DNA from: Stramenopiles sp. TOSAG23-6
Taxonomy: Eukaryota > Sar
Length of the DNA: 30,743 nucleotides
Assembly: GCA_900128565.1 (NCBI GenBank)
Contig: LT635963.1
Span: 1 to 30,743, forward strand
Reading direction: 5' to 3'
Part shown: piece by piece, positions 1 through 30,743 of the stretch
Layout of the letters: every line of letters starts with the position of its first letter
Position numbering within the stretch: the stretch's first letter is position 1
Notes under the pieces: generated by a model
The model's input: only the letters and a program-made list of their open reading frames with translations
The model's database searches: none
Told to the model about the DNA's origin: nothing
Position numbers and translations under genes: made by a program

Positions 1-101
1 TTGTGAAAAAATATTTCAAAAAAAAAACTTAAATTTGTTAGGTACAAAATTTCGTACAAAACAAAATTCGATTTTTTTGTTAAAAAAAAAATAAAACATA
101 C
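1..101 (-). mobile_element. Introner-type intron N of the myotubularin-like gene (3' end cut by window edge)
   Basis: Begins GTATG at 101 after exon bases AT (phase 2). It carries the GTACCTAAC motif, and its T-rich tail reaches the window edge at ...TTCACAA, so only about six terminal bases are missing if it follows the family pattern. Confidence 0.8.
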
Positions 102-3100
102 ATATTAAATGGACATAACCAAGGCGAGCCTATATGATGGTCGCCTAATGCAGCTGCAACGGATAATGCGGAGCAGGAGTAAAACATATCCACGTATTTT
201 GGAAAAATATTTGAAAAAAAAAATCATTAGGTACAAAATTTCGTACGAAAAAAAATTCGAAGTTGAAAAAAAATAAAACGTACACTTCCAAATGTTTGTT
301 AATATGATGATGATGGAGTCTTTCATACAAGGTTGTCAGATGACTTAAACTCCGAAATAAAGTATGTATTTTGGAAAAATATTTGAAAAAAAAATCGTTA
401 GGTATGAAATTTCGTATGAAAACAAATTCGATTTTTTTGTTAAAAAAAAAAATAAAAATATTTGAAAAAAAAATCGTTAGGTACAACATTTCGTATGAAA
501 AAAAAATTAAATTAGAAATTCATATAAAACGTACATTATCTTCATCCCATTCTTTACTTCTATTCAGTGTAATATGTTCAACTATAAAACGAAAACGCCG
601 AAAATCTCTAGTCAGAATTTCCAAAACTGTTTTACTACATACATTGCGTTTACAATGTTTTTTGGAAAAATATTTCAAAAAAAATCTAAACACAATTGTT
701 AGGTACAAAATTTTTTTACCAAAAAAAAAAATAAATTTGAAATTGAAAAAAAATAAAACATACATGCTGTTTGCTATTTTGATTGCTACCATCCTTACCA
801 TCACAAAATGAATTAGAATTCTGAGCTTGATGAAGGATTCCATTTGAATTATTTTGTCTACCATTGTCATAATTAAAAAGAGATTTTGGTTCAATTTCTG
901 AACAAACTGAGCTGATATTATCATAAGTATTCATACTTAATTTTGCAATCATGACTAACGGAAATTGTAATAATGAATCCGATGTATTTTGGAAAAATAT
1001 TTCAAAAAAAATCTAAAACATTTTGTTAGGTACAAAATTTCGTACGAAAAAAAAATGTAGACAAAAAATTGAAAAAAAATAAAACATACATGCTCCAGAA
1101 TCACTTATATGAGAATCTTGTACCATTTCTTCCGGCATAAAAATAACTCGCCAATCCGTTAATAGCAAGGTACCAATTTTTAGTTCGTTAGGAGTAGGGT
1201 CAGGACAAGAACCCAATATCGCAAGAATATGTATTGTGAAAAAATATTTTGTGAAAAAAATCGTTAGGTACGGAATTTCGTACGAAAAAAAAACTTGAAT
1301 TTGAAATTCATTATGAAATTGTACATGAGGAATAACCAGTTCTGGGAGTTCTGTGGCTTTGGGTGGAAGAGAAAGAACTCTAGCCTGGGAAGCACGCTGA
1401 TCTTTTGATGCATCAAGTAGTAACTTCACACGGCGTTTTCTGAAAAAGTCATTACGAAATTTTGATGCATACGTATTGCAAAAAAATATTGCAAAACAAA
1501 AAAATCGTTAGGTACAAAATTTCGTACGAAAAAAATAAATTCGAAATTGAAAAAAAAAACGTACACTGTGTACATATAAAATGATCCCATGCAATGCGAA
1601 GCGACATCAACTCACCGAAATTAAAAAACGTTTTCATTGCAAATTCTGCAACAGCATTTTGTAATTGAGTCCGTCTCGATGTATTTTGGAAAAATATTTC
1701 AAAAAAAAAAAATTAATTTTTGTTAGGTACAAAATTTCGTACGAAAAAAAATTCGATTTTTTGTTTAAAAAAAAAGATAAAACATACATGCTGCTAAAGA
1801 TCTTGCACTGAACGGTTGGCGTGATTCCAACATTCCGCCCTCTCCTTTTTTTAATTCCATCTCTTCAATCGCTTTTACAAATATATTTTGGAAAAATATT
1901 TCAAAATTTACTATAAAAAAATTTGTTAGGTACAAAATTTTCAAAAAAAAAAAATCAATTTTTTGTTAAAAAAAAAAAATAAAACATACATAATTCAAAA
2001 CTTCCTGGGGAAAAAATGGGTTTTTCTCCTTCAGTATTTTTAGTATTTTTAGTATTTTTAGTATTTTTAGTATTTTTAGATTGTTCACTCACCCACTTGC
2101 GAAGAACCTTTCGAGACCATCGAGATAGTTGGGCACCTGAAAGGTTTACAATTGTATTTTCATTACTAGTTGTAGAAAAATGAAAACCACGTTTTGCCGC
2201 TGCAGCTACGAAACGCCGAGTGACGTCATCAACTGCTTCTAGATTGGATCCAAGTCGAGTTTTTTCCACATTTGCTAAATTTTCAGCTCTTATATCAGCA
2301 TCTATTTGAGCAACTTCTGCTTCTTTTTTTGCTGCATCTAACAAATCAATGTGTATTTTGGAAAAATATTTCAAAAAAAATCTTAAAAAATTGTTAGGTA
2401 CAAAATTTCCTATGGAAAAATAAATTCAATTTCAAATTTAAAAAAAAAAAAAAAACATACATTTGTTTTTTCTAGATCCAAACACTTTTCAATATATAAT
2501 TTATCACTTGCAGAATCGTTAGGGTTAGGATTTTGGAGGCTAAAAGGAAGCGCCAATCTACCTTCGCTTCGAATATTTCGTATGAATTGTGGAAAAATAT
2601 TTCAAAAAAATCTAAAAACATTTGTTAGGTACAAAATTTCCTATGAAAAAATAAATTCGAAATTGAAAAAAAATAAAACATACATTGATTCGTGAACAAT
2701 ATTTTCACTCGGAGATATCGAACAAATGGCCTCAACCAAAATTTCTCCAGTCACATATAATGAAAAGAAATATTTCCAAAAATTGATTTTTTTGTTAGGT
2801 ACGAAATGTTCTATGAAAAACAAACTTAAAATTCATGATAAATAAAAACGAATATAATAAAAACGAATATAATAAAAACGAATAGTATATAAAAACTCAA
2901 AAAAAAATCTTTTTTGTTTTTTTTGTTTTTTTTTGTTTTTTTTTGTTTAGGTACGAACTTTCCTATGAAAAAAAATAATAAATGAAAACATACATGCTTT
3001 GAACGTTTCGTCCGTTTGCCTAAGGGAAGCCATTCAGAACAGATGGTGCACGCAGATAGTGAACATATACTCATGTATTGTGAAAAAATATTTCAAAAAA

Positions 3101-3806
3101 AAATTAATTTTTGTTAGGTACAAAATTTCGTACGAAAACAAATTCAAAATTGAAAAAAAAATAAAACATACATAGCAGCTTTCCCAAGAAATTTTCCAGT
3201 GCCAATTATAGATCGTTTGTGAAAAACTTCGACTTCAATAAAAGAGTGTAACCCTTGAGACAACGGAAATACAAACATCATGTCCCAACTAGGGTTAATA
3301 CCCCCCTTCTTCTCACCCTCAATCTTATGGTCCAGTGTACATGTATTGTGAATTTTTTTTTTATAAAATTTGTTAGGTACAAAATTTCGTACAAAAAAAA
3401 CAAAAATTTGAAATTGATAAAACGTACAGGCTTTTCCGCTACCAACACGTACTTCACAATATGGATTTAATGTTCCAACAGTTCCTTTGGAAGTCAAGTT
3501 TCGGGCGCTAGAAATTTTTACAACGATAAAAGGACCAAGGTCTTGCTGTTTGTGCCGAAGTGAAGACAACTCAAAGAACTCCTTTAATCCTCCTTGCGAT
3601 CTATAAAGTCGAACTGCAAGAGCTGGACGCTTTCTACACGATGCACGGGAATTAACTATAGGTACTATGTCTTCTACTGTAGGTGTATCTTGACCACCAC
3701 CTTGATTTATTACAGTCTTCTTAGAATGAAAGTCACTATCAGACGAAGTTTCAACAGAAGGACAGGCATTTCGTTTTTTTCGTGAAAATGGGTTCCAACT
3801 CTTCAT
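1..3806 (-). CDS. Myotubularin-like protein with N-terminal C2 domain, 5' part (C-terminus beyond window)
   Basis: Starts at the ATG ending at 3806. Exons on the minus strand: 3806-3428, 3340-3172, 3072-2994, 2754-2684, 2581-2461, 2350-1990, 1880-1788, 1678-1565, 1470-1325, 1228-1090, 981-764, 654-535, 363-284, 191-102. All phases close, giving about 726 residues. Residues about 85-225 form a C2 domain (LNPYCEVRVG, then INPSWDMMFVFPL, then GEILVEA), a lipid- or membrane-binding fold. Residues about 395-510 are charged and helical. Residues about 512-670 match the PH-GRAM domain of myotubularins: LKIGTLLLTDWRVIFMP, then FPLVMIAKL, then ILTRDFRRFRFIVE. The following TLFRSLSHL segment and DMFYSCSAL fit the start of the phosphatase region. 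Myotubularins remove the 3-phosphate from PI3P and PI(3,5)P2 on endosomes. The catalytic CX5R loop would lie outside the window, so activity cannot be judged. Fourteen introns are all of one repeat family. The family call is inferred from motifs. Confidence 0.72.
192..283 (-). mobile_element. Introner-type intron M, 92 bp
   Basis: GTACG...ATACGT, phase 2 (GT|G), perfect internal TTTCGTACGAAA palindrome. The exon ends in GT and the intron also ends in GT. This is one of two copies where the flanking dinucleotide is GT instead of AT and both sides changed together. Confidence 0.88.
364..534 (-). mobile_element. Composite introner-type intron L, 171 bp, with partial tandem duplication
   Basis: GTACG...ATACAT, phase 0 (AAT|ACT). 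It contains the 3' module twice: the branch-like motif (seen on + as CGTTAGGTA), the CGTATGAAA-type core and the AATATTTGAAA tail recur about 80 bp apart near 380-420 and 457-500. Only the outer ends are used if the reading frame is to stay open. Confidence 0.85.
655..763 (-). mobile_element. Introner-type intron K, 109 bp
   Basis: GTATG...AAACAT, phase 0 (CAT|TGT). The internal palindrome is degraded, but the GTACCTAAC motif and tail remain. A TTTAG occurs about 30 bases before the end; using it would shift the frame by one. Confidence 0.87.
982..1089 (-). mobile_element. Introner-type intron J, 108 bp
   Basis: GTATG...ATACAT, phase 1 (GCA T|CG). The shared CAT lies at exon end and intron end. 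The splice joins the two halves of the GRAM domain. A TTTAG upstream of the end would lead to an in-frame TGA if used as acceptor. Confidence 0.9.
1229..1324 (-). mobile_element. Introner-type intron I, 96 bp, diverged 5' segment
   Basis: Begins GTACAATTTC in place of the usual GTATGTTTTATTT, then regains the family core (TTTCGTACGAA) and ends ATACAT. Phase 0 (CAT|ATT), with CAT on both sides. Confidence 0.85.
1471..1564 (-). mobile_element. Introner-type intron H, 94 bp
   Basis: GTACG...ATACGT, phase 1 (CAG T|AT). Second copy whose exon end and intron end are both GT. The palindromic core is intact. Confidence 0.88.
1679..1787 (-). mobile_element. Introner-type intron G, 109 bp
   Basis: GTATG...ATACAT, phase 1 (GCA T|CG), palindromic core intact, CAT shared by exon end and intron end. 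Confidence 0.88.
1881..1989 (-). mobile_element. Introner-type intron F, 109 bp
   Basis: GTATG...AATATAT, phase 1 (TTA T|TT). The palindromic core is replaced by an A/T-rich stretch. TAT is shared by exon end and intron end. Confidence 0.85.
2029..2080. repeat. Coding microsatellite, 9-bp unit, about five copies
   Basis: AGTATTTTT repeated on the plus strand. Read in the minus-strand exon it encodes repeated Lys-Asn-Thr triplets just after a SEQS segment of the myotubularin-like protein. The unit length is a multiple of three, so copy changes keep the frame. Confidence 0.9.
2351..2460 (-). mobile_element. Introner-type intron E, 110 bp, ending ACAC
   Basis: GTATG...ATACAC, phase 0 (AAT|ATT). 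This is the one complete copy ending in AC instead of T, and its boundary is unambiguous because no bases can be shifted between exon and intron. Confidence 0.83.
2582..2683 (-). mobile_element. Introner-type intron D, 102 bp
   Basis: GTATG...AATTCAT, phase 2 (AT|A). The core is diverged (a CTATGAAA form on the plus strand). Confidence 0.87.
2755..2993 (-). mobile_element. Composite introner-type intron C, 239 bp, with internal short repeats
   Basis: GTATG...TTATAT, phase 0 (CAT|GTG). The longest copy. Two branch-like GTACCTAA motifs (near 2794 and 2949 on the plus strand) flank an internal array of an about 15-bp AATAAAAACGAATAT unit (2838-2890) and a T/G-rich run (2908-2948). It looks like a doubled element with a microsatellite expanded between the copies. 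Confidence 0.8.
2838..2948. repeat. Tandem short repeats inside intron C
   Basis: Three consecutive copies of an ATAAAAACGAATATA-type unit are followed by TTTTGTTTTTTTT-type runs. They lie wholly inside the composite intron, so length variation would be invisible in the protein. Confidence 0.85.
3073..3171 (-). mobile_element. Introner-type intron B, 99 bp
   Basis: GTATG...ATACAT, phase 2 (AT|G), palindromic core intact. It separates two parts of the C2 domain. Confidence 0.9.
3341..3427 (-). mobile_element. Introner-type intron A, 87 bp
   Basis: GTACG...ATACAT, phase 1 (GCC T|GT). Shortest complete copy. TGTAC occurs at both junctions, so the exact cut is ambiguous over five bases although the spliced product is the same. 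Confidence 0.88.
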
Positions 3807-4196
3807 ATCACTTTCTACTACAAACTACAAACTACAACGTAAAGTAAAGTAAAGTAAAGCAAAAAGGTACAATGGTGTTGTGGAAGTTACAGGTGTGAAA
3901 ATAGTGGTGCATTCCAAAAATGTTTCGTATGGGATGACCTATACCTACAAGTATATTAGTATCGATAAAGCGCGTGAAATGAAAAAATTCGACCTGAAAT
4001 CCAAAAAATAGCAAATTTGAAAAAGTCGATCCCGGTAATCCATCGGTTAAAAAAACGGAAATTTGAAATTTCTCTTTTTATACCCTTCGGCATTTGCCTA
4101 AACGTTTCACATTATTCTGGAACATCGAAATCTACGCCGATCAATAGTGATTTATATGTGCACACGATTCAATATCCTGCATAATATACTTTGGTA
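3807..4196. other. Divergent intergenic region
   Basis: 390 bp between the start codons of the myotubularin-like gene (-) and the LRR gene (+), so it must hold both promoters. It contains a short AGTAA/AAGTA microsatellite at about 3838-3860 and a CTACAAA triplication just before it. I recognised no TATA box or other core element with confidence, and no coding segment. Confidence 0.6.
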
Positions 4197-4997: not shown

Positions 4998-5072
4998 TCT
5001 AAGTAAGATATTTCAGTAGAGTCAAATTATTTTTCTAATTTTATTATTTTGTGGGAAATTAAGGTTTTGAAA

Positions 5073-11000: not shown

Positions 11001-14000
11001 TCGGGGCATTTACTAAGTTGAATAGAACTTTGGCAAAAGTAACCAGCTTTACATTTTCCTTCCTTTTCGGCATCTTTTGTATCTCGCTCAATCATTCTAC
11101 AAATTTTTCTTTCACCCTCTGAGTCTTGTACTTTGTGGGTATATTCAAGGCATGCTAACCTGTTTTGTTGGTGGCATATTTCACTCAGACCTGCTTGTGC
11201 TTCACAGGATGCGACCCAAATTCTTTCCGTAACCGACCTTTTAAAAACACCGTTGCAAGAATTTTCTGTGGTTTTACTACTATCATTGCATGTGTTGTTA
11301 GTATAATCCCATACTCTATCAAAATCTTTCATAAAAGGCCCACCTTTGCAATCTGTCTCTGTAGTTTCATTAGGGTCATTACAAGAAAATACCTTTGTGC
11401 AGTGAGTTGGACACAATACATTTCCTTCTACAATAGTACTGGGACAATCCATAACTTCACATAAACCGGAACAAAAAGCACCTGCTTGACATACATCGGA
11501 ATCATGAGTTTGTGCTCGATTAGGACAGAATCTGCCATCTCTACATGGTCTACAAGTAGGAGTGTGAATTAATGCGCTGAATTTTCCAGCTTCACATTCT
11601 TCACACTTGAAACTACCATCATCCTTTTGTGTATAATGCTCACCTGGACCACATGTTAAAGCCAACTTTGCTTCACTAAAATCACCTTTACCTTTATCAT
11701 TTTCGGCTTGAACGCGTACAGAAATATTTGTCGTTCTGTTGACAGTCATAGTATGAACTACATTAAAAATACGCTCTGCGCCAGAAGAACAACCCCCAAC
11801 ATTTGTTTCGCCAGATGCACCAACATTGAAATTGAACCCAGATATCATAGCCCCTCCATTTTCCGGGCACGTATACTTTACTTCAATGGTCAGTCGTGTT
11901 GATGAGTCAGTTGTCGTGGCTGATTTTATAAAAGCTCTCAATATTGTTGGTGTTTTAGGAACAGTTGCGTCTAACGCTACATTGAATTCTGCCGTTAAAT
12001 CTGTCCTTCCTAGACTATTTTCACCCCATGCAGTTATTTTGGCACCTCTAGTTCCCTCTTCAAGTCTAGTGACTGCAATTGATGACCCTGTCTCTACACT
12101 AAGCCACAACTTGTATTCACTTGATGATGTACACGAACAACTAGAATTGTTCCAGCTACATGCCGAATCACTATTGCAATCAGACTCCTCCAAAGAAGTG
12201 CAGCTACATGGCTTATCCTCAAGAGTTGGGTTAAATGTGCCCGTTGTAACATCTCCGCTGCGAGAAGTAGTAATCATGGCTAACTCCCCCATCCGTTTTC
12301 CAGATAAGAATTGTACAAGTAAGTTTTTATGGTCATCATTTGTGTCTGGATCAATATACGCACCTAATTCAAACGCATCGAGTTCAGTGTCAATAAGTGT
12401 TCCACTCAAATCACCATTGATAAATGTGTGAAATATAACATACTTGTCAGATTCGTCCTTTCCAAATGCCTTACCATCTTCGTTCACTCCATACAAGGCT
12501 GGCAACTCGTACACAACTATAGTTCCAGCAGCAGCAATATATTGAATTTGAGGTTTTGTGTATTTACCCACACGCCCATCCGGTTCCCAGAGAGGTACAG
12601 ATGCAAGAACACACACTTGATTATCTGCATCATACGTAAATATAATTCCTGCATCAACACATTTGGAAATTTTTTCTTCAATATCTAAATCTTCTTCGAC
12701 ATCTCCGCATTCACCGGCATTGATAGCAAATAGTGAACATTCCTCTTTACAATGATCTTCATTGTAGTCGCCATCGTGTTCTAAATAACAACGACGCTGA
12801 TTCCATACATTGTGAAAAAATATTTCAAAACAAAATCGTTAGGTACGAAATTTCGTACAAAAATTAAATTCGTAATTGAAAAAAAAATAAAACAAACATG
12901 GTTTCTCTTCTCCAACATTTAGCGTATGTGTAATAGATTCTTGAGATGATCCCCAACATACATTATAGTTCCTATCTATTGGTGCAATCTTGCAAGAGTT
13001 TCCTAAAACACTTAAACAATTGGACACATTCTGATTTGGACATTTATCTGAACACACGTCATCGACCCATTCACAAGCACTCCCTATATCAAGACAATCA
13101 CTACTGTTTAGGTGTGCATAACAAGGAATATGATATTTTCTTATACATTGTGGTGAAATATTAATCAACCCAATATCGTTACTAGAAAATTCAACTTGTT
13201 GTGTCATTCCTGGGGCTTCAATACCGAAAATAGTATAACTTATGGTAGTGTCCTCAATATCGGAAATTATTGGGGCATCCCACGTAACGGTAATTGTACT
13301 GCGCTCTGCGGTTGTGCTGCTGGTGGTTATTTTTGAAAAATATAGAATACTGTCAACAGTAAACTTAAACTTCCAACCAACGTAGTGATGCAGCGTAGGA
13401 TTGAATAGGAAATTTTCTGGTGCATCAAGTATTGTAGACATGCGGTTTGCGCATCCCGATATTTTAGGGCATATTTCTTTACTCATCGTACTACACTGAC
13501 AATTATTTACATCATATGTGTTGCATTCACATGTTTCATCATTGGAATTATATGTACAATTGTCGTCACTTGAGCATTCTGAGACACTTTTGCTCTCACA
13601 GGCACATGTTGTTGAGCATTTACACGATTCATCCCAATGACAACCACCAGTGGTGTCACATTCAGATTCATCATATTGTTCACAAGTACAACTGCAATTA
13701 CCAAAACAACGACTTTCAATATTTGAAAGTGATCCTGAAATACCTGTGACAGCTTTGTCACACGGCGCAGTAGTTACTTTGACATATGGCCTTGGCGAAG
13801 TTTCTTCAAAATAGTCAATAATGAAATGCATTTTATGTGTTTTAGTAGGAGAAAGAATTTTGTCCTGTTTTGACCAACCAAACATATCATCAATCATTGG
13901 AACCCTGGTGATCTGTAAAGGGGTATCTTCTGAAATAGCATTATAAAATTCGTTATCATTCTCTAAAAGTTTATAGCAAACAGACACGTGGTCATCTTCG

Positions 14001-20000: not shown

Positions 20001-23000
20001 GCTGCGGAGGGAACTTGTGTGACTTCCAATAAATATTCAAGAGGGTTTGCTGCACCCCAATCGTAAGCAATATGTTCATTAATAGCAAGCTTACAGGCCG
20101 TTGTTTCGGTAAAAACAAACTGCACGGTTTTATTAGGTTGTACACAGAATGAACTCCGCCAAGCTTTTGTTACACATACTTCATTTATAAGGGTACATTC
20201 ACTAGTACATTGAGTAGGACTTCGGTTAAAACAAGGATCCCTACATTGTGTTTTACCAGCTATCTCTACTCTATCGCACAAAATGCCTTCAGGACCAGTG
20301 TACAATACAGGGCATTTGCTTACTGAAAATGCTGAGCATGGATCACATGTAACAAACATTTCTACCCGGTTCGATGCATTTGTGCCCTTGTTTTTCCCAC
20401 TTTTTACAACTTTAGTTGAGGTTGCACCCATTGTATGTCCGACAATGTCACAAACCGCATTATTCTCCCCCTCAAAAGTTGTTTTACCCAGTGACGATTT
20501 TAGCCTAAGTACATGTTGCCGGAAAAGACCTGTTGGATTTGGCTTATACGGAGTTTGGAATGTAAAATATAATTTTGTTGGCCGAATGTTAGATTCAATA
20601 GTACTTAGTTGGGCAATTGCACCCATCTTGATATCGTCTACATCTATATAACCAAGGCACGATCCAACATTTTCGCTGTTTTGGTTTAGAACCAATAAAT
20701 TATTCTCAGTATCCAATGCACATGAAGTGCATGAATCCGCTTTATTGGCTTCAATGCAGGTGTTACACGTTGAATGACACGCGCCCGCAGCAAACACCTC
20801 AGCAGACCTGACAGTAACATCATGGCTTTGTCCCCAATAGAAAGAAAAATCGATGTATTGTTTCTTCTTGATGAAGCATCCATTTGAAGATTTCCTTGGC
20901 TCTATTCCATTTTCGTCAATGTCTACATTATTAGCTTTGCGAATAATCCAGGAATGTTGTTCTGCTTCTGCAGTAAACGATCCGTACAGTGCACATCCCT
21001 TCCAGTAATCGAGACCATATTGTCCAGCACCAGACCCAGCAACATATGCCTGACATTTTGGATTATCATTACATAGTTGCCGACATTCTTCAGATGAAGT
21101 CACAGAGCCCAATGTAGCAGTTGGATTTGGACAGATTGGATATGGCCTACGTAATAAACCCTTGTATGTTTTTTCCAATGGTACACACGAATTTCCTGTA
21201 AAGCTACAGCATGAATTTTCCTTTGCTGGGATAGATTGGCATATCGAGAATTTATCTACGACACTAGATGAAATTCTTGATTGCTTCACTTCACATGTGT
21301 CTTGATAATCTGAGCCATTTGTACAATCATCCTCGTCTTCCATTTCACATGATCCATCATCACCGAAACGGCAACATCGATCAGCTTCACTTAGATTATT
21401 ACACGATTGCAATGTTGTAGGATTTCTTTTTGTGGGACATAAGAGATCCACATCTGCGACATTTGTTATGTAGCTCTCGAGAGGGCGCGTAGAGCCATTT
21501 AAAGATATACCTTTGCAAACACCAAGTTGTCCATTACTTGACGCAATATATCCTTCGATACTTTCGTGACTTTTGAACTTACAGTGCGATCCACTTTTAA
21601 TTACAACTTTTATCGGAGCTCCATGTGGGAGATTGTCATTCAGCGATATTGAAATGCTCTCTTCTTTTTCGGCAAGCATACAGTCACTTGAATTTGTGAT
21701 AATCTCATATCCGTACTTGCAGAAATAATAAAAATCTTCAGAACATTTTTTTCTACCCAATGCACTGCAATCTGGGTCATTCATACACTTAGTCTTAGCA
21801 TCTTCTAAAGAATCAAACTCTTGGAAGTTGTACTGATGAGGAGCATCATGTATTGTGGAAAAATATTTAAAAAAAAAAATCATTAGATACAAAATGTAGT
21901 AGAAAAAAATATTTAGGTAAAAATTGAAATGAAAACATACACACGACAAATTCATCGATTCCATAAATAAATAAGCTATATTTGCGGTATCAAAATACTC
22001 TTCATCGTCACCATTGACATTCTTAACACTGACGTCACACTGACTTTCACCAATTGGTAAACCTTTACCTTGGCTATCGATAAAAAAGGGAATATTTGCT
22101 TGGGATTCATCACAGGGTTTGACAGTGTAATATTTCCAGCTCAGACCAAAAGATGGTGCATTGGACAGTGATACATTAGAATTATTGAAGACAATACATT
22201 CTTTCTCTTTCGGATTATATAATATTGCATTACATATACTACCCCAATTCGAGCATATATTGAAACAACTTTCAATAGTGGAGTGATTATTTTTCACTTT
22301 ACTTGCTTTACCTTGTGATATTTGTTGTTGATGAGAATTTGAACCACTTGGATGAAAGAAAGAACTCCCCTCAAAACGGGGGCAATTCACATCTACGAAT
22401 GAAAACTTTCGTTTATGAACCATAAAATGTATGTTTGATGTATTCTGCGATACTCTGAATTTTGTAGAGATAGTTGTGGGTGCATGATCTGGACCAAATT
22501 GTAAGGAATCCATAAAAACACTCAGTTGACATTTACCTACGATATCACTAACTTCAGTTAGTGACAGTTCCCCATTACAATTTCCACAACGAGTTGCATC
22601 ATTTTTATTATTACAACCATTGCAGGTTTCGTGACAATCATTTAGTCCAATGCTTTGCAACGACTCTCTCTTGTGTTGTTCATCGGTAAAATAATGATTC
22701 CACTCCCTATAATAACTTCCGCCATTTCCGTCAGAATATTTATGTCTCCATCGAATACCAAGACCTCTGTTATCATCATCGGCGGAATCAATTTCCCTAA
22801 ATCTACAATCACTGTCATCATTTTCGTCTGATTGCATTATAATGGTTAACACTTCTCGATTTTGGGGAAATAAAGCAGTGGTTGAAAATTTGGCCAATAT
22901 TGAAACATCTTTAGTGGCTAGATACATCTCTTCATGTTCTTCATCTGGATTAAGTGAAGGACATTTTTCATCATCTTCATCCAATGTTATGAAACCACTC

Positions 23001-25023
23001 TCATAATTTGATCCAGGATTTGCAATTTCACACCACGTAATATCACCATTATGAAAACATACATTAAGTGTCATTCCAGTACCTTCGCCACCTTTTGTTG
23101 CTACACCTTGAAAACATTCATTTTGGACGTCATATCTTCCCTCATTATCACCATTATCATCCCGACAAGAAATCAAAGGTACAAATTCTAATTCAGGATT
23201 TTCATCATTTTCAGGGCGGATTTCATTTAAGAGAAATTGTTTTCTTGGAAATGATGAACCTGCAATGTAGGATTCAAATTTACACCTACTCGATTGTTCG
23301 TCGGAGTCTAAAATAGATTGTTCAATTGCTGAAGATTCAGTTACATAAATCTCAGTACTTAAAATGTTTTGATCACTCCGATAATGCATTGTATTATCAG
23401 GCATTATTGAAATTTGTGCACTTGTTGGAGTAGTCTCTTCCTGTAAAGTGTTAAAAGTTGCCAAAATCTCTGGACACATTCCAACAATTTGAATCGGGGG
23501 CCAATTGCCGTCATGGTAGCTCAAACTACTAACACTCGGATTTAGAAAGTCAATATTACACGCATGACAGCTATGACTATCATGCTGGGCATTGCACGAA
23601 TCAAAGGCACAACTTCTTGGGCACCTCCCAGACTCAAGAAAATCGAGGGAGAAATAAAATTCAACATCGTCGTCTTCAATGTTTGCGTAAAATTCCATAT
23701 TTGAAGAAGGATTTGAATTCATTGAGCAGATACTAGTGAACCGAATAACGATAACAAGCGTCTGATTTTTATTAACACTTTCAGATAAAGTGATTGTGAG
23801 TTTATCTGAGGAGTCTACAGTGATACATATATTGTGAAAAAATATCTTTTTGTAAAATTTGTTAGGTACGAAATTTCGTACAAAAAAAAAATTCGAAATT
23901 AAAAAAAATAAAACATACTCTCCGCAATATTTGTTTCGTGTGGATAGTTTCCGCGGACATCCAGAATACTGCAGTTCTCAATATAGTCTGGAAATATCCT
24001 ATTTGCAGAATTGCCATTTATATCATGTCTTATGAAGATTTTGTCACCAGCAGATAAACTTTGACTCGTTTCAAACTCGGCGTAGAAAACATTTGGTACG
24101 CGACCAATTACTTGATTATCAAATTTTACTCGAAAGTTGCCATTATTACCACCATTACCATTATTACCACCATTACCATTATTACCACCATTACCATAAC
24201 CATCACTATCATCATTACCACCACCACCTGCACCTCCATCATTATAATCATTACCTCCACCACCTGCAGCACCTCCATTATCATTGACTTCACATACACC
24301 AGTTGATCCATTATTGTGATTATATCCCACACACTTTGGCTTGTCACTAGGGCACTGGCNCTGTGAGCTAACAGAGGAAGGATAAGACTGTCCACAGCAA
24401 GGTGAACTGGATTCGAAGTCTGCCTGGCAACCTTCATCATCTGCACCTCCACCACCTCCATTATTATTGACTTCACAAGCACCCCACGTATGTTGCGAAG
24501 AACTTGAACTTTGAACATACCCCGTACACTTTGGCTTGTCAGTAGGACACTGGTACTGTGAGGGAACATTAGAAGGAATAGACTGTCCACAGCAAGGTGA
24601 ACTTGAGGAGTAGTCAGCCATACAATCTTGATTGCAAGCACCCCACGTGAATTCATTTGCATTTAAACTATAAACATACCCCATACACTTTGGCTTGTCA
24701 GTAGGACACCGGTACTGTGAGGAAACAGTCTGAGGAACAGACTGTCCACAGCAAGGTGTAGTTGAGGAGTAGTCAGCCATACAACCATTATTATTGACTT
24801 CACAAGCACCCAACGTTTCTTGCAAAGAAGTTCTAACATATCCCACACACTTTGGCTTGTTAGAAGGACACCGTTTCCCTGAGGGAACATACTGAGGATC
24901 AGTCTGTCCACAGCAAGGTGAACTTGAGCCGTAGTCAGCCTTGCAACCGACCATTGCATCAACCGCAACTAAATGAATTAAGCAAAACAATACATATATT
25001 CTTCTGAACATGTGATTCGACAT
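5073..25023 (-). CDS. Giant cysteine-rich multidomain cell-surface membrane protein (about 6,555 aa), five apparent +1 frame breaks
   Basis: Exons 25023-23919, 23826-21941, 21847-12898 and 12804-5073. The start at 25023 is chosen because it places a signal peptide (MFRRIYVLFCLIHLVAVDA) at the N-terminus. Order: four CCGQ repeats (27-250), Gly/Asn-rich linker, furin-like CxxCxxC modules and PAN-like segments (about 300-1750), two LamG-like regions (about 1870 and 2960), a polybasic stretch (about 2660), many small C-x-C motifs with a Trp, an FN3 domain (about 4275-4370), about 38 ephrin-receptor-like (GCC2/GCC3) cysteine repeats (to about 5620), one helix, two EF-hands, a further set of about six helices, a WW-like domain and a charged tail. 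The frame breaks lie at homopolymers 19437-19442, 18600-18605, 14287-14293, 10186-10191 and 7179-7185. Dropping one base at each gives exact codon closure. Likely an adhesion or sensory receptor; this role is inferred. Confidence 0.8.
5562..5685 (-). other. WW-like domain near the cytoplasmic C-terminus of the giant protein
   Basis: The pattern W-(x12)-Y-W-V-N-x2-T-G-x3-W-x-D-P (residues about 6365-6395) matches a WW domain, which binds proline-rich peptides. The stretch that follows is Lys/Arg/Glu-rich and ends at the stop codon. Confidence 0.65.
5700..7380 (-). other. Membrane and EF-hand region of the giant protein
   Basis: A first helix (YLFILVCFITFWVSFW) is followed by two EF-hand loops, DIDGNGVVGLDE and DTDHNGAISFTE, both with the acidic and Gly positions needed to bind Ca2+. 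A linker then leads to about six hydrophobic segments. Between them lies WWFELIEMLRKAMMTG, a phrase typical of the polytopic domain that follows GCC2/GCC3 repeats in protist proteins. This arrangement places a calcium sensor on the cytoplasmic side next to the membrane. One of the frame breaks (7179-7185) falls between the two EF-hands. Confidence 0.75.
7450..11640 (-). repeat. Array of about 38 GCC2/GCC3 (ephrin-receptor-like) cysteine repeats in the giant protein
   Basis: Units of the form C-P-x-G-x-Y/F-C separated by 12-35 residues, for example CPAGYYC, CPEGSYC, CSAGKYC and CPRGFYC. The count is by eye. An Ala/Gly/Ser-rich insertion of about 45 residues interrupts the array at about 10,740-10,880. 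Extracellular stalk or ligand-binding region by analogy with the family. Confidence 0.85.
12805..12897 (-). mobile_element. Introner-type intron, 93 bp, third in the giant gene
   Basis: GTTTG...AATGTAT, phase 1 (CCA T|GG). The 3' end reads GTAT instead of ACAT. The family core TTTCGTAC and GTACCTAAC are present. The AT before the intron repeats at its end. Confidence 0.88.
21848..21940 (-). mobile_element. Introner-type intron, 93 bp, second in the giant gene, diverged core
   Basis: GTATG...ATACAT, phase 0 (TGT|GAT). The palindrome is lost and the branch-like motif is TATCTAATG, the most diverged in the window. Only T is shared between exon end and intron end, consistent with an old insertion. 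Confidence 0.87.
23827..23918 (-). mobile_element. Introner-type intron, 92 bp, first in the giant gene
   Basis: GTATG...AATATAT, phase 1 (GAG A|GT). The exon ends GAGA, so the usual AT duplication is missing on the left; GTAT recurs to the right of both junctions. This copy rules out reading the family uniformly as AT-AC introns. Confidence 0.88.
24136..24273 (-). repeat. Gly/Asn-rich linker with 18-bp minisatellite
   Basis: Encodes repeated GGNNGN hexapeptides. The 18-bp unit (plus strand ATTACCACCATTACCATT) occurs about three times at 24143-24196, with related Gly/Asp/Asn repeats beside it. It separates the N-terminal CCGQ repeats from the rest of the protein. Confidence 0.9.
24274..24945 (-). 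repeat. Four tandem CCGQ cysteine modules at the N-terminus of the giant protein
   Basis: Each module of about 45-55 residues follows C-x-A-D-(x6)-P-C-C-G-Q-(x9)-C-P-(x3)-K-P-K-C-x-G-Y-(variable)-C. The third and second modules are the most alike. The only ambiguous base in the gene (N at 24360) lies in the fourth module, at the residue before Q-C-P. I do not recognise the family; six conserved cysteines suggest a disulfide-bonded extracellular unit. Confidence 0.88.
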
Positions 25024-25269
25024 TTTAATAGTTTCTACTGAAGATTCATCAAACCAACCAGTTAGATATTTATGCAAGTACACCGTCGTTTTTTGTCAGT
25101 TTCTGTCAGTTACAAAACCGAAAAACCGCCAATATCTCCATATATTATTTCGTGCACAGCGGATTATTTTTTGTTGTCATAGACACCAAGAAAGAAGAGT
25201 AATAAGTAGTCAGCTACAAGTCATTATATTATTATAAGCATCGAAACTTAGTTAAACAGTATATCTTTA
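25024..25269. other. Divergent intergenic region
   Basis: 246 bp between the chosen starts of the giant gene (-) and the methyltransferase gene (+). It contains a direct repeat TGTCAGTT at about 25096-25111. In-frame codons upstream to 25083 could extend the giant protein by 20 residues, but the extension would push the signal peptide inward. No core promoter element was recognised. Confidence 0.55.
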
Positions 25270-26543
25270 ATGTCAAAGGAACCACACCCGGGCGACTGGG
25301 AATGTCCCGGGTGTTTACTGGTAGTGTTTGCACATCGTAGTGAATGCATACGTTGTGGTTTTGCCAAGCCAGGTGAGTATACTGTACCAAAGAAGTTACG
25401 AGCAAAGGTATCGAGACCATTGGCCAAGGAGGAAACAATCTCAACGAAATGTAATAATAGTTTAGAAAAAGGAACACAATCCAAGACAATTCACAAACAA
25501 TCACAACGAAGCCGTCACAATAAAAAACGGCGTCTTCGTCAAAGTGCTAGGAAGCCTCGCTTTGCAGCGTTTGCTCGTTGGATAAAGGAAAAGTTTGGTA
25601 ATGTGATGCTCCCAGGTTGTTCTGTCCTTGATGTGGCTGGTGGTTCAGGAGGCCTGTGTTGGGAATTGGTTGCCCCGTTATCAACAATAGATTCAATTAG
25701 ATGTACTGTGATAGATCCAAATCCCGTCCGATTTAGTAGAAGAAAGACTGAAAATCTCATTCGCGCTGCCTTAGTTAGAGTTAATGATTGCAATTTCAGT
25801 GTGACCAAAGTTGAAAATGTCACCAAAATAGACTCTCAGATAAAGGTGGCACTCGACATCAAGTGCTTAGACAAGACAGTCATTGATAAGGCTTCAGATG
25901 TTGTAAGCGATACAGCTGTAAATATTCTTCAAAAACGTGGCGCCCAGCAGCTAAAAACTCTTTTTAATGCAGACTTTTGTTCTGGTCAAAATCCGAATGG
26001 GTCTGAAATCTCGAAAGATTTGTGGCAAAAATGTGTGTTGGTAGTTGGCTTACACCCAGACCAAGCAACGGATTCAATCGTAGACCTCGCACTGAAGCAT
26101 CAAAAGCCTTTCGCTGTCGTTCCATGTAGGTTTTTTTATCATTACGTTTCACCTCTCTATTTTTTTTTATACCAAAATTTGTACCTAACAAATTTTTTAC
26201 AAAAAAAAAAAAAAATATTTTCCACAAAATATGCTGTGTATTTCCAACACTCTTTAAAAAACGTCGTCTTCCTGGTGAACTAAAAGTACGTACGCGTGAA
26301 GAATTATGTGAATTTTTGAGGTTAAAATCTCCGACTTATATACATATATGTTTTATTTTTGTTTCAGTTTCGAATTTATTTTTTTCATAAAATTTTGTAC
26401 CTAACGATTTTTTTTTGAAATATTTTTCCAAAATACATGTAGATACAATACCTGATTTACCTGGTCCTTGTAATACGGTAGTTTGGTGTTGTGACTATTC
26501 TGTACCAACTTTATCAACTGAAGACAATATTGTAAAAGTATAA
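25270..26543 (+). CDS. RanBP2-type zinc finger + SAM-dependent methyltransferase-like protein
   Basis: Exons 25270-26125, 26233-26345 and 26439-26543, giving 357 residues. Residues about 8-34 form a RanBP2-type zinc finger, W-x-C-x2-C-(x10)-C-x2-C (DWECPGC...ECIRCGF), though the usual Asn is replaced. Residues about 115-130 carry the Rossmann motif VLDVAGGSGGL of SAM-binding methyltransferases, followed by an acidic motif in CTVIDPNPVRF. Further on VVGLHPDQATD and, only after removing the first intron, VVPCCVFP appear; this phrase recurs in a family of poorly characterised eukaryotic methyltransferase-like proteins. Rejoining that phrase is independent evidence for the splice site. Substrate unknown; the zinc finger suggests RNA or ubiquitin binding. 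Basic linker at about 75-110. Confidence 0.8.
26126..26232 (+). mobile_element. Introner-type intron 1 of the methyltransferase gene, 107 bp
   Basis: GTAGG...AAAATAT, phase 1 (CCA T|GC), plus-strand orientation, matching the plus-strand host. TTTGTACCTAAC is intact; the 5' half is diverged. ATG occurs at both junctions. Confidence 0.88.
26346..26438 (+). mobile_element. Introner-type intron 2 of the methyltransferase gene, 93 bp, without 5' GT
   Basis: ATATG...ATACAT, phase 0 (CAT|GTA). The family 5' end GTATG is ATATG here, and the shared ATACAT at both junctions gives no GT in any placement. The body (TTTCGAATT, GTACCTAACG, CCAAAATACAT) is otherwise typical. Confidence 0.85.
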
Positions 26544-26680
26544 AATATAAATATAATACATAATAATATTTTTTGTTAAAATTGATACCTACATTTTGTT
26601 TCATCATAAAAATATCGAGTAAAAAATGGCACAAACCTGATCTTGTCCCCCAAGGGAGCGCGCATTTTGAGTCAGTTCGA
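26544..26680. other. Intergenic region between two plus-strand genes
   Basis: 137 bp, very AT-rich, between the methyltransferase stop and the proposed TBC start. It must contain the 3' end of one transcript and the promoter of the next. Nothing further recognised. Confidence 0.5.
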
Positions 26681-28738
26681 ATGCTTGGTAATTACTGGGC
26701 CACACGTCGCAATTACTTGCCTGCTTGTACGGAGTATAGCTAGTCCTAAAACTCAAACAAAACAAAAAGGAAATGAAGATTCTATCACTACTAACACTAT
26801 TTGTTTCAGCATCTTTTGTATACGGAGGCGATCCTGTGCCTGTTCACGATGAAGGCTTTAAGCGTTTTCAAGGAAAAATTAAAGGAGCGCCCTTTGAGCT
26901 TATGCTTCTGACACAGCATGTTCCCACCACATCAGGCGTCGATGCAGCTCTAGTCAAGAGTGAGAACGGACGTGTGATGATGTTTATTCCATATTTGGAG
27001 AATCTGCATTATAAACTTACAGGGCTTGACCTTATCGTCACGTCATCAAATATTGTAAGTGTTTATGCCGCAAAGGGACCCATGGGAAGGTTGGAAGAGT
27101 TCGAGATAACTTTTTCTTCGACTGAAATAGCCAAAAGCTTTGTAACTGCTGTAGAAGCTGTATTTAATCCGACCACTGCAATTACCAAAAGTGAATCAAG
27201 TGCATTTCATATTCCAACAAGCCGTCAAGAATCTAAAGCTCCCGGTTATGCTTCAATCAATGAATCGGCACAGACTAACAACCAGCAGATTAAACCACAT
27301 CTTCAAGATCTTCAAGTGCTCACAGCTAAAGACATAGACACTGGTTTTGAGCGACCTAAATTGACGAAAGAATCTTCAGCTGAGCTCCCCGGTAAGATTC
27401 ATCTAATAAAAGACAAATCACTTCAAGATTTGTATGAGTCAGATTCAACTTCAAGAGGAACTGCGTGGCAAACACGTGCAGGTGTGGCGGACTTCAGGAC
27501 CAAGGAAGAAACCAAATCTTTTCTTGAGTTAGTAAAAGAAGGCAAACAACGTTATGATGACGTTGCGGACGATAAACACTCAGACCAGTACTATGAAGCT
27601 AACTATACCCACGATGAATATCACTGTTATGAACAGATTGTAAAAGATGTTCCAGATCGAGTGGCTGCAACTGATCAAGAAAAAGAAGCACTGACAAGAA
27701 TATTATGTGCTTATTCCGTGTTTGATCAACGACTCCGGTTTTGTCAGGGAATGGATAATATTGCACTTACGCTTCTCAGACTCCCAATATCAGGAAACAC
27801 AGATGAGGGGAAACAAGATGGAGGGAAAACAAGCAAAATTTCTGAAGAGGATGCATTTTGGTTATTAGCAACAATATATCATGATAAAAAGTACAAATTA
27901 TCAAATTATGCACGTATTGACGATGGTGGAACAGTAGCAGAAACTGTCGCAGAGGCTGTGGAAAATTTGATGGAGTTACAGGAAGGTAATGATGCATTAC
28001 AGAAGATGCTTGAGTTTCCCAAAGCCATGAACAATTTGACTTTTTTTGTGTACAGTTTGACACATAAAATTTTCCAAATGTTTGAAGGGTTTGCAGTTAA
28101 GCTTGACATCTATGACATGTTTATTGAAAGTGGGTGGCCAGGTTTAGTAAGAGCCATCGTTGCTCTTGTTAATTTTGCAAGGTAAGTGAAAATATATCAT
28201 ATTTTATTTTATGGAAATCTCGAAATCACAAATTTATATATACTAACTAATCAAAATTTCTATTTTTACCACATAATTCAACAGTACTTTGCTTTTGGAA
28301 AAATTTGGAGCAGCAAACAACTGGAAAATTGGTGAAATGGAAAATGATGCACAAGAAATATTTGAAGCGTTGCCCAAAACGTGTACACAGAAAAGATTTC
28401 GAGAGAGCCTTAAAGCGATTAAGCCATTTGAAGAATTTGATACAATTTATTTAAGAAAGTTGCATGATATTTTTTATGAATCGAAGTCACCACGAAAAAT
28501 GTCAACAACTCAGAGACGTAGAAAATATCAAAAAGCTCGAATGTCTCAAATGCGGGGGCATTCACTGCCTGCAATGCCAAGAGAGCCAATGGAAGGCATG
28601 AACGTATCAGTACCGCGGCGATCCAAAAGCGCCAACGGCAGAGGAAGATCGATATCGCCAAAACCTATGTCAAGAGAGGCAGACACCGGGTCACTTTCAT
28701 CATTTTTGTCTTTCTTCAAAAAATCTTCCGGAGAATAG
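26681..28738 (+). CDS. TBC-domain protein (putative Rab GTPase-activating protein)
   Basis: Proposed exons 26681-26687, 26810-28181 and 28285-28738, giving 610 residues. The TBC domain spans about 235-505: IVKDVPDRV stands at the arginine-finger motif and RFCQGMDN at the glutamine-finger motif (usual YCQGM), followed by EEDAFWLLATIY and, near its end, DMFIESGW. TBC proteins accelerate GTP hydrolysis by Rab GTPases in vesicle traffic. Residues about 15-120 (FQGKIKGAPFELMLL and onward) may be a PH-like fold, uncertain. The C-terminal about 80 residues are basic and Ser-rich. A longer reading from ATG 26773 would begin with an apparent signal peptide, but that stretch contains TACTAAC and TTTGTTTCAG and looks like an intron end; a cytosolic start fits the family better. 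Arg stands one residue later than in the usual IxxDxxR. Confidence 0.78.
26688..26809 (+). other. Proposed canonical GT-AG intron 1 of the TBC gene, 122 bp
   Basis: GTAATT at the 5' end, CTACTAACAC branch site, then TTTGTTTCAG. Phase 1 (ATG CTT G|CA) keeps the frame. The 5' partner is the least certain element, since exon 1 would encode only two and a third codons. Confidence 0.5.
28182..28284 (+). other. Canonical GT-AG intron 2 of the TBC gene, 103 bp
   Basis: GTAAGT...TTCAACAG with ATACTAACTAA upstream of the acceptor. Phase 2 (GCA AG|T). Joining restores NFASTLLLEKFG and the end of the TBC domain. Not repetitive. Confidence 0.9.
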
Positions 28739-28878
28739 GGGGTTCTAATGATAACAATTATAGCCAGCCTTCATTCGCACTAGAAGCATATTCTAGCAAA
28801 AACTTGCACATATTTTGTATATAATTATAAAAGATCATCAATTTGACTAATATATGACAGTATATTTCAATACTTTTA
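28739..28878. other. Convergent intergenic region
   Basis: 140 bp between the stops of the TBC gene (+) and the SLC37 gene (-). AT-rich, presumably holding both 3' ends. No gene seen. Confidence 0.6.
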
Positions 28879-30688
28879 TTACAATTTTCTTATTTCTTTT
28901 ACAACAAGACGAATAAGGCATGCAGAAGCCATTAAACAGCAAAACATCAAAAAGTAAAATACATAATTCCATCCGAAATACGTTGAAATTGCACCAATAG
29001 CAACGCCTTGGATTGCAGCACCTATTGAACCTGTACCATCTACTATACCAGTTACGGTAGCCATTAATTTACCTTTTGAATAGTTTGAATGTTCATAATC
29101 TATGTTTGCAGATTCTGAATTGCTCAGAGAGGGATGACAACCGAGATCAGCTGAAACTGCTGTAGTAATGTATTTTGGAAAAATATTTCAATTGGTTTTT
29201 CTTTAGGTACAAAATTTCGTACGAAAAATAAATGTGAAATTGAAAAAAAAAAATAAAACATACATGAGTGCGTAAGGACCATTAATTAATACTCCAACAA
29301 ATAGCATGAGGAATACATTTGGTAGCAACTTATCGCCAATCTCAATAGATATATATCTGTATGTAAGTAATCCAGGGATTGAAAGTATCAGAAATCCAAA
29401 AGAGACACAAGCAGGTTTACGTGTCATATCTCGTAAAAGTCCAGCAAGGATACTCCCAAATATGCCACCAATATCAACAAAAGTACACAGATATCCCGCA
29501 TGTACAACGGAAAAACCATTATGCACTAAATAATATGGTGTCCAAAAAATAAAAGTATACGCAACTAATTTAACAAATAACAGACATACAGAAAATTCAA
29601 TTACTCCAGGGATGTGTTTTGGAAAAATATTTCAAAAAAAAAATTTTCAATTTGTTAGGTACAAAATTCCGTACGAAAAAAAAAACGAATTTGAAAAAAA
29701 ATAAAACATACATACACAATGCTTTGTAAAAATTAGACAATGACTGTTTACGCTTTGGGTTTTGTTTCATATTGTCTGCGGATAACACTTGACTTTCATT
29801 ATTTCTGAAAGATGACAAATTTGGATGTACATTATTTGACACATTTTCTGGATTTGTCTGTAAACGAACTTGCCATACCCCGCTTTCTCGAGTGCTTACA
29901 CTATGTAGTTGTCCAGTACTTGACATCAAATCAGAGTCGTTTAATTCTTCTTCATTGAGTCGTTGAGAATACATGTATTTTGGAAAAATATTTCAAAAAA
30001 AAATCGTTAGGTACAAAATTTATGNAAAAAAANAANTTCGAAACTGAAAAAAAAATAAAACATACATATTCCTAATGCCAGTTTCAGTTGATGATATTAT
30101 TTGATCTCCGATATTTTCTTGAGAAATGACATCAAGATCACCTGTTGGAAATCCAAGTTTCGAAGGATATGGAATGATAAAAATAAAGACAGTTATTGTA
30201 GATATAAACATTACAACACCCGCAATAACAAAAGCCATTGGCCATGTATTTTGGAAAAATATTTTTAAAAAAAGTAGTTAGGTACAAAATTTCGTACGAA
30301 AAAAACCTTCGAATTTGAAAAAAAATAAAACATACATGAAACATTGTTTTTTCCTAATTCACCAGTCCATAGAGGGAAGCTTAAAGCTGCAGTACCCAAT
30401 ATACTCCCAATGATATTACCAGTACTAGTGTGAGCATTCCAAATACCCATGACTAGACCTCTTTCATGTTTTCCATACCAATTACCAACGATTGATACAA
30501 CAGCAGGCCAACCTGAAGACTGAAAAATACATGTCCGAGAAAAAATATGTCAATCACAAAAAATATTATTAGAAACGGATACAGAATGTTTTGAAAATAA
30601 GAAAAACAAATGGATTTCAGTCTGAAGAAAGTACCTTGTACTGCATAGATAGAAATAAAGTAAATCAGAGAGTGTTCTTTGAACCAGT
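28879..30688 (-). CDS. SLC37-type sugar-phosphate transporter (major facilitator), 3' part
   Basis: Exons 30688-30635, 30512-30336, 30243-30066, 29972-29712, 29611-29264 and 29167-28879, giving 434 residues plus a cut N-terminus; all phases close. Diagnostic phrases after splicing are GWPAVVSIVGNWYG, MGIWNAHTSTGNIIGS, IPGVIEFSVCLLFVKLV, GGIFGSILAGLLRD, GPYALITTAVSADLG and TVTGIVDGTGSIGAA, all characteristic of the SLC37 glycerol-3-phosphate / glucose-6-phosphate:phosphate exchangers. These act at the ER or other endomembranes. A hydrophilic loop of about 100 residues between the N- and C-terminal helix bundles (after GDLDVISQE) is encoded across two introner-type introns. Substrate cannot be told from sequence. 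Confidence 0.9.
29168..29263 (-). mobile_element. Introner-type intron, 96 bp, last in the SLC37 gene
   Basis: GTATG...ATACAT, phase 2 (CTC AT|T). The branch-like motif is GTACCTAAAG. Joining gives the conserved PYALITTAVSADLG, which fixes the boundary independently of frame counting. Confidence 0.93.
29612..29711 (-). mobile_element. Introner-type intron, 100 bp, SLC37 gene
   Basis: GTATG...ACACAT, phase 2 (TGT AT|C). Joining gives CIPGVIEFSVCLL, a conserved SLC37 helix start. Confidence 0.92.
29973..30065 (-). mobile_element. Introner-type intron, 93 bp, SLC37 gene
   Basis: GTATG...ATACAT, phase 2 (AT|G). Contains three ambiguous bases (30025, 30033, 30036), probably because near-identical copies confuse assembly. 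Confidence 0.9.
30244..30335 (-). mobile_element. Introner-type intron, 92 bp, SLC37 gene
   Basis: GTATG...ATACAT, phase 1 (TCA T|GG), giving SWPMAFVIAG, a Trp-Pro at a conserved helix start of the family. Confidence 0.92.
30513..30634 (-). other. Canonical GT-AG intron in the SLC37 gene, about 122 bp
   Basis: CAAG|GTACTT...TCTTCAG|GTTGG keeps the frame and yields AVQGWPAVV. An AG eight bases earlier (30521) follows a better pyrimidine tract but would shift the frame. Sequence is unique, unlike the introner copies around it. Confidence 0.8.
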
Positions 30689-30743
30689 ATGTATTTTGGA
30701 AAAATATTTCAAAAAAAAATCTTAAAAAATTTGTTAGGTACAA
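30689..30743 (-). mobile_element. Introner-type intron cut by the right window edge (3' half)
   Basis: The 3' half of a family copy: TTGTACCTAAC, T-rich tail and CCAAAATACAT|AC. The exon begins with the last two bases of a codon. Confidence 0.85.

Follow-up and report, generated by a model that had tools for sequence, protein, structure and literature searches.

Probable introners with a target-derived and mostly non-AG 3' end in Stramenopiles sp. TOSAG23-6

A stretch of 30,743 nucleotides from Stramenopiles sp. TOSAG23-6 (GenBank assembly GCA_900128565.1, contig LT635963.1, positions 1 to 30,743; the whole of it is called the window here) contains 24 copies of a short element that begins like a spliceosomal intron and lacks AG at its other end. 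The question raised by this locus is whether such elements are removed as introns and, if so, what serves as their 3' splice site. An earlier note had proposed an introner family of near-identical copies that end in ACAT-type sequences and follow an altered 3' splice-site rule. The window is contig C13 of the assembly (408 contigs, 8.03 Mb), and copies were examined both within it and across the genome. The explanation that we regard as probable from the sequence is that these elements are introners which carry their own donor and branch site, take the acceptor from the target, and reside in a host that tolerates non-AG acceptors.

The element was found at all 24 coordinates listed in the earlier note. 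Read in the sense of the gene, its layout is GTATGTTTTATT-, T-rich body, -TTTTGTACCTAAC-, T-rich tract, -ATATTTTTCCAAAATAC-NN, or in short GTAYG...CTAAC...NN. A total of 127 copies were parsed from the window and the genome, and 22 that were misparsed, truncated or degenerate (some being AT/AT copies truncated at a stretch boundary) were removed, leaving a curated set of 105. The copy finder required a near-consensus 3' end, so diverged copies, such as one in stretch L033, were missed. The median length in the curated set was about 98 nt (range 86-138), the median pairwise identity was 85%, and the median identity of each copy to its best match was 93%; the copies form one family, and "near-identical" was too strong a term. 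Of the canonical U2-type signals, a U1-like donor was present (GT in 92/105 copies, and in 22 of the 23 window copies with a visible 5' end), as was the branch site, CTAAC or CTAAT being found in 103/105 at a median of 36 nt from the 3' end (range 31-59) among copies preselected by the branch-site motif. The AG acceptor was absent from the window copies: among the 23 whose 3' end is visible, the last dinucleotide was AT in 20, GT in 2, AC in 1, and AG in none. As candidate terminal inverted repeats, inspection by eye showed just GTAT...ATAC with a T/A run, a bulged match of about 8 bp.

In the genome, the branch-site 12-mer TTTGTACCTAAC had 888 + 799 = 1,687 matches, duplicate contigs included, vs 1 + 0 for the reversed control, which excludes chance. 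Since some contigs are near-duplicates or palindromes, the distinct copies are fewer than the matches, and the genome still holds many hundreds of copies of this short mobile intron. Terminal dinucleotides were tabulated after the exact 18-mer AATATTTTTCCAAAATAY, again with duplicates included: AT followed in 560/632 cases (89%) and AG in 19/632 (3%). The non-AT pairs comprised 43 that begin with A (AG 19, AC 15, AA 9, counted from the listed rows) and 29 that begin with C, G or T. Sequence was fetched for 54 of these 72 non-AT rows; another 12 were duplicates or already included, and the remaining 6 began less than 130 bases from a contig start; from a further listing of 29 genome rows, 28 were fetched and 1 palindromic duplicate was omitted. 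Carriage in viral contigs was rejected, since IMG/VR contained no match to an exact 23-mer, a search that diverged copies would escape.

The variable final pair was compared with the end of the upstream exon. Exon-end and intron-end bases agreed at position -1 in 87/105 copies and at -2 in 90/105, above all 2,000 shuffles in both cases, while positions -3 to -7 showed no agreement beyond the shuffles and the downstream side showed none. Identical non-AT pairs were found in 25/47 copies (TT 7, AC 5, CT 4, AA 3, GT 3, AG 2, GG 1), where the shuffles had a mean of 4.5 and a maximum of 13. Judged from this agreement, the last two intron bases are a locus-specific 2-nt target-site duplication (TSD) of the end of the upstream exon, and the element proper would end at ...AATAC, with NN supplied by the target. 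The preferred target is YAT, a pyrimidine occupying -3 in 53/68 exons that end in AT. A TSD, exactly 2 nt long in the 105-copy set, is also expected of cut-and-paste DNA transposons and miniature inverted-repeat transposable elements (MITEs); it is weaker in a second 3' subtype described below (5/28).

Removal of the elements was tested on the reading frame in the 122 parsed copies that had sufficient flank in the fetched stretches. Exact removal opened the frame in 105/122, displacement of the 3' end by 1-2 nt in 27, 27, 27 and 30/122, and retention in 16/122, so that retention of the elements was rejected. The result held for every class of ending: frames opened in 57/67 copies ending in AT, 10/12 ending in AG, and 38/43 ending in neither. 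Within the curated copies, 94 of 104 opened on exact removal, 20 at each shift, and 12 when retained. The second 3' subtype (...TTTTTTCACAATAY), from which copies with AA, AC and AG endings were fetched, gave 25/28 exact closures vs 16/112 for shifts. A fixed ACAT rule was likewise rejected: ACAT is the final tetranucleotide in only 14/23 window copies, and other pairs (AA, AC, AG, CT, GG, GT, TT) occur with closing frames. The non-AG part of the earlier claim stood for the window, and its ACAT part did not. The many similar copies inside genes with closing frames are those expected of introners. The element sense strand coincided with the longest open frame in 98/104 copies (antisense 3, tie 3); in the window 22 copies are on the minus strand, and those at 26126-26232 and 26346-26438 are on the plus strand, matching the sense of the host gene.

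Four genes of the window had been said to close in phase. The first, at 102-3824 on the minus strand, has a C2 domain; with 13 introners removed it consists of 14 exons and 732 joined codons with 0 stops, the two alternative frames having 46 and 79. When the 3' end of a single intron among the 13 internal ones was shifted by 1-2 nt, 1-66 stops appeared, whichever intron was chosen. The gene at 25252-26543 on the plus strand has a RanBP2-type zinc finger and stays open up to its own stop once both introners are removed; its start codon could lie elsewhere, and its end coordinate was derived from the length of the translation. A transporter-like gene is open across four introners provided that a further intron near 30520-30641 is assumed, and in a giant gene two of the three introner junctions require removal, that at 21848-21940 being open both ways.

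Protein continuity was observed at junctions with different endings. The joined exons of carbamoyl-phosphate synthase aligned without a gap at the junction of a CT-ending intron, as did those of arginyl-tRNA synthetase (ArgRS) at an AC-ending intron and of myosin at an AG-ending intron. A WD40 protein, aligned to another WD40 protein, was gap-free at the junction of a TT intron, with a one-residue gap a few residues onward; the same protein also matches CAF-1B across almost its entire length. At AT introns, DEM^GLGKT and CGHSL^CAPC were regained by eye, which we take to be motifs of a CHD-type helicase and a RING domain, respectively. In the window, VVPCCVFP was restored at 26126-26232 and GPYALITTAVSADLG at 29168-29263, as had been reported. 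At the level of sequence, repetition, locus-specific 2-nt duplication, exact frame closure, gene-sense orientation and conserved-protein continuity are thus established for the family, and they suggest introners that are excised precisely, probably by RNA splicing and by the U2 spliceosome.

The cut probably lies at GT|NN, within an ambiguity of 2 nt. This register is favoured because the U1-like hexamer is then at +1 and because AG prevails among changes at the intron end. Where the exon had kept AT and the second base of the intron-end pair had changed (22 copies, both subtypes), the new pair was AG in 13, AC in 6 and AA in 3 (P=0.012 under equal chances); AG made up 8/12 of these changes in the first subtype and 5/10 in the second. 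With the second subtype alone not significant and a mutation bias conceivable, the AG excess is suggestive, and a drift of AT towards an AG that is still liked is only suggested by it. A GC or GA donor was seen in 3/8 of the first-subtype copies with exon AT and intron end AG.

Several observations weigh against the proposed excision of introners with a duplicated acceptor. The frame stayed closed after exact removal at 17/122 junctions. The alignment of PAN2, which has a GT intron, needs a 5-residue insertion a few residues off the junction, and that of a PRP4-like protein with a TG intron does not reach the junction. Donors were non-GT in 13/105 curated copies (ATATG 8, GC 4, GA 1), and the donor is therefore relaxed as well. 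Agreement between exon end and intron end at position -8, reached by 40/2,000 shuffles, is unexplained. Exon and intron pairs of the second subtype were identical in 5/28, so that its duplication is apparently either poorly kept or poorly parsed; these copies may be older ones. With pairs identical in most copies, cutting at GT|NN and cutting two bases upstream would yield the same mRNA. The AG excess in the second subtype alone had P=0.21, and one of its five AG copies failed to close the frame. Finally, searches for U1, U2, U6 and U2AF1 gave no match, these being searches without a positive control.

That ambiguity of register allows the same introns to be cut two bases upstream on both sides, with an exon-derived NN before GTATG and a fixed ...AATAC end, mostly as AT...AC introns. 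Such a cut predicts the same mRNA wherever both dinucleotides match, and the pair that precedes NN, AC or AT in 104/105, is more constant than NN itself. We nevertheless consider it unlikely: the U1-like GTATGT would fall at +3, and the predominance of AG among second-base changes where the exon pair is AT (13/22) is sensible only if the intron-end pair is the acceptor. The branch site of U12-type AT-AC introns lies 10-20 nt from the 3' end. The elements would resemble that class if cut two bases upstream, and they differ from it in donor, branch-site sequence and branch-to-end distance (31-59 nt), so that the U12 hallmarks are absent. Ordinary GT-AG splicing at an AG located within the element, or else in the exon after it, was also weighed, since 28/105 copies have an AG between branch site and end, several as TTTTAG. 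The frame test rejected it: the internal AG opened 8/28 frames vs 24/28 for the exact end and rescued 0 exact-end failures, and the next downstream AG opened 30/92 vs 83/92 and rescued 1. AG sites elsewhere, which the earlier note had named as a possible refutation, are therefore no general explanation, and we give a hidden acceptor very little credence.

Excision outside the spliceosome, as for the nonconventional introns with paired ends of euglenids and some diplonemids, would account for the short direct repeats at both ends, and GUAU and AUAC did pair in 5/12 predicted folds. The folds of the 12 introns were weak, however (z from -3.2 to +0.65, 2/12 below -2), a strong hairpin was rejected on that basis, and the donor and branch-site consensus are spliceosomal, which makes this mode of removal improbable. 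More improbable still is excision at the DNA level, as in ciliates, whose internal eliminated sequences are flanked by a repeat of 2 nt. Short AT-rich elements, a 2-nt direct repeat and exact removal are all features that it would share, but a donor, a branch site and a T-tract are present, and the sense orientation would be unneeded. Ciliate internal eliminated sequences are not known to have an orientation bias relative to genes, and DNA-level excision was rejected on the 98 sense, 3 antisense and 3 tied copies of 104. The two proteins that were placed in trees lay near stramenopiles, in trees that held no ciliate row.

Under the favoured explanation, short non-autonomous mobile elements, the introners, would become introns upon insertion. 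Each copy brings its own donor, the U1-like GTATGT, together with a T-rich tract and, at a distance of some 36 nt from its end, the strong branch site TACCTAAC. The acceptor would not be carried; insertion would duplicate a 2-nt target, preferably within YAT, and the downstream copy would become the final bases of the intron. A U2-type spliceosome would then cut in front of GT and behind the duplicated pair, regardless of which bases form that pair, restoring the pre-insertion mRNA in a host that would have to tolerate non-AG acceptors. Acceptor choice would seem to depend less on the dinucleotide than on the branch site and on position. The altered 3' rule proposed earlier was supported as regards the non-AG ends of an introner family with an ordinary-looking donor and branch site; AG itself is not abolished (19/632), and because a probable AG intron ending in TTTTTCAG lies in the same window, the AG rule appears relaxed rather than replaced. 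A broader proposal can be put forward tentatively: the 3' splice site may be selected without reading the terminal dinucleotide, branch distance and upstream context being sufficient, so that an introner could be silent nearly anywhere in coding sequence, AG would be a mild preference that copies drift towards, and a single machine would serve any-NN introns as well as canonical ones.

Introners are a leading explanation for bursts of intron gain, and many of those known carry both splice sites or borrow one, in canonical form, from the target. If the landing site supplies the acceptor and this need not be AG, much of the constraint of a canonical target is gone. Hundreds of natural acceptors with a common donor, branch site and tract, differing mainly in their last two bases, constitute a ready-made test of how the 3' splice site is found. 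Searches that require GY/AG introns would presumably miss the family.

Comparison with known systems was based on excerpts of the respective publications. The introners of Amoebophrya (Farhat et al. 2021, PMC7789003) are described there as non-canonical repetitive introns with direct repeats of 3-5 nt, inverted repeats of 8-20 nt able to form hairpins, and no clear splice signature. Both families are repetitive non-canonical introns of protists with direct repeats at the borders and terminal dinucleotides that are not fixed, the short GTAT...ATAC ends here being possible counterparts of the inverted-repeat ends there; the present one differs in its exactly 2-nt duplication, its strong donor and branch site, the predominance of AT (89% of the exact-motif set) and its weak predicted folds, no hairpin of the 8-20 nt type being found in the 12 introns folded. 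In Fritillaria (Soo et al. 2026, PMC13326754), AT is reported as the commonest 3' end, at 44% for F. pellucida and 34% for F. borealis, AG/AC and AG/AT introns are often preceded and nearly always ended by YAY, a requirement for the U2 spliceosome is stated, and U2AF is duplicated. The exon side here is YAT in 53/68 AT cases and most introns end in YAT, which is similar; Fritillaria is an animal, however, and the same text gives AG/AC and AG/AT, not GT/AT, as the most frequent of its non-canonical classes. For Chrysochromulina (Gozashti et al. 2022, PMC9860276), the donor is described as coming from the element and the acceptor from a 4-bp TSD, and the survey methods mention GY/AG splice-site nucleotides. 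The division of donor and acceptor between element and target duplication is the same here, with a TSD of 2 bp instead and with a co-opted pair that can vary and is usually AT. For euglenids and diplonemids, nonconventional introns are portrayed (PMC12621601) with many non-GT-AG ends, a suggested MITE-like origin, strongly paired ends, intron hairpins in hemistasiid diplonemids, and U1-mismatched donors in two species; many non-GT-AG ends are shared, and the weak folds and U1-like donor of the present family are not. A TSD-supplied acceptor (Chrysochromulina), AT acceptors (Fritillaria) and non-canonical introners (Amoebophrya) are thus already known separately. In the open-access literature, covered by listings beyond the papers cited here and without subscription papers and preprints, no introners were found described with a TSD-supplied acceptor that is mainly AT and free to vary.

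PRPF8, encoded on contig C84, looked ordinary. Over the 1,879 residues that were compared, it had 26 private changes at positions where 99% or more of 104 relatives agree. Its segment around KSYKMN, which we take to be the location of a 3'-splice-site contact, was close to that of a bird. Its identity was 81% and 79% to metagenome proteins and 77-78% to oomycetes, and a quick tree grouped it with two metagenome rows. No introner core was found in the approximately 11.7 kb of C84 that were read, and this contig may therefore derive from another cell. Nor was one found in approximately 24 kb of C380, which may therefore belong to another organism; an HSP60-like gene on C380 has apparent GTAAGT...AG introns. 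The lack of the core in C380 and C84 could reflect either patchiness or a second organism. A helicase on the introner-bearing contig C5 had a tree path nearest to oomycete and unnamed rows, with a long branch; its top-scoring record was labelled fish at 46% identity, and oomycete rows had 43-55%. A stramenopile source is likely on these placements.

The individual copies of the window are located as follows, on the minus strand unless indicated. The copy at 1-101 (GTATG...) has its 3' end cut by the window edge. Within the gene at 102-3824, the copies at 192-283 and 1471-1564 end in GT, as does the upstream exon of each; that at 2351-2460 ends in AC after an exon ending in AT; and those at 655-763, 982-1089, 1229-1324 (donor GTACA), 1679-1787, 1881-1989 (ATAT), 2582-2683 (TCAT), 3073-3171 and 3341-3427 (upstream exon CT) end in AT, as do two composites, one at 364-534 with two element bodies and a long one at 2755-2993. 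In the giant gene, the copy at 12805-12897 is GTTTG...GTAT and that at 23827-23918 ends in AT after an exon ending in GA, both needing removal for an open frame, and that at 21848-21940 ends in AT after an exon ending in GT. On the plus strand, the copy at 26126-26232 is GTAGG...AT and that at 26346-26438 ends in AT and has the donor ATATG, the single non-GT donor of the window; further examples of non-GT donors are in fetched stretches L083, L116, L070, L085 and L086. The remaining copies, at 29168-29263, 29612-29711, 29973-30065 (containing N), 30244-30335 and 30689-30743 (5' end cut by the window edge), all end in AT.

The AG intron mentioned above, at 30520-30641 on the minus strand of the transporter-like gene, is probably a canonical intron rather than an introner copy. 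Where it begins is uncertain, an alternative open solution starting at 30582, and it had been overlooked in the earlier note. The giant gene (5073-25095, minus strand) has a PAN match and weak EF-hand and TRP matches. Its overlapping open frames break at A/T homopolymers and look like indel errors rather than introns, and its repeats comprise short tandem units with Gly/Asn runs at 24137-24226 and four repeats of about 158 nt at 24281-24954. A coding exon of the gene at 102-3824 contains tandem 9-nt units (AGTATTTTT) at 2031-2080, which translate into NTK repeats from the minus strand. A homologue search for a TBC protein scored 8,000 candidates, none of which reached E<=0.001.

With regard to the assembly, several contigs start inside an introner near base 35 (for example C18, C19, C21, C37, C43 and C45), and the repeat therefore probably broke the assembly. 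Introner positions agree between C13 and C14 with a 2-nt offset, and mirrored introners occur on the palindromic contigs C2, C4 and C27. The palindromic contigs and homopolymer frameshifts look like errors of single-cell amplification and assembly. On C27 (stretch L004), two introner-like copies have CCCTAA telomere-type repeats right behind the donor (GTAGGTTAACCCTAACCC...).

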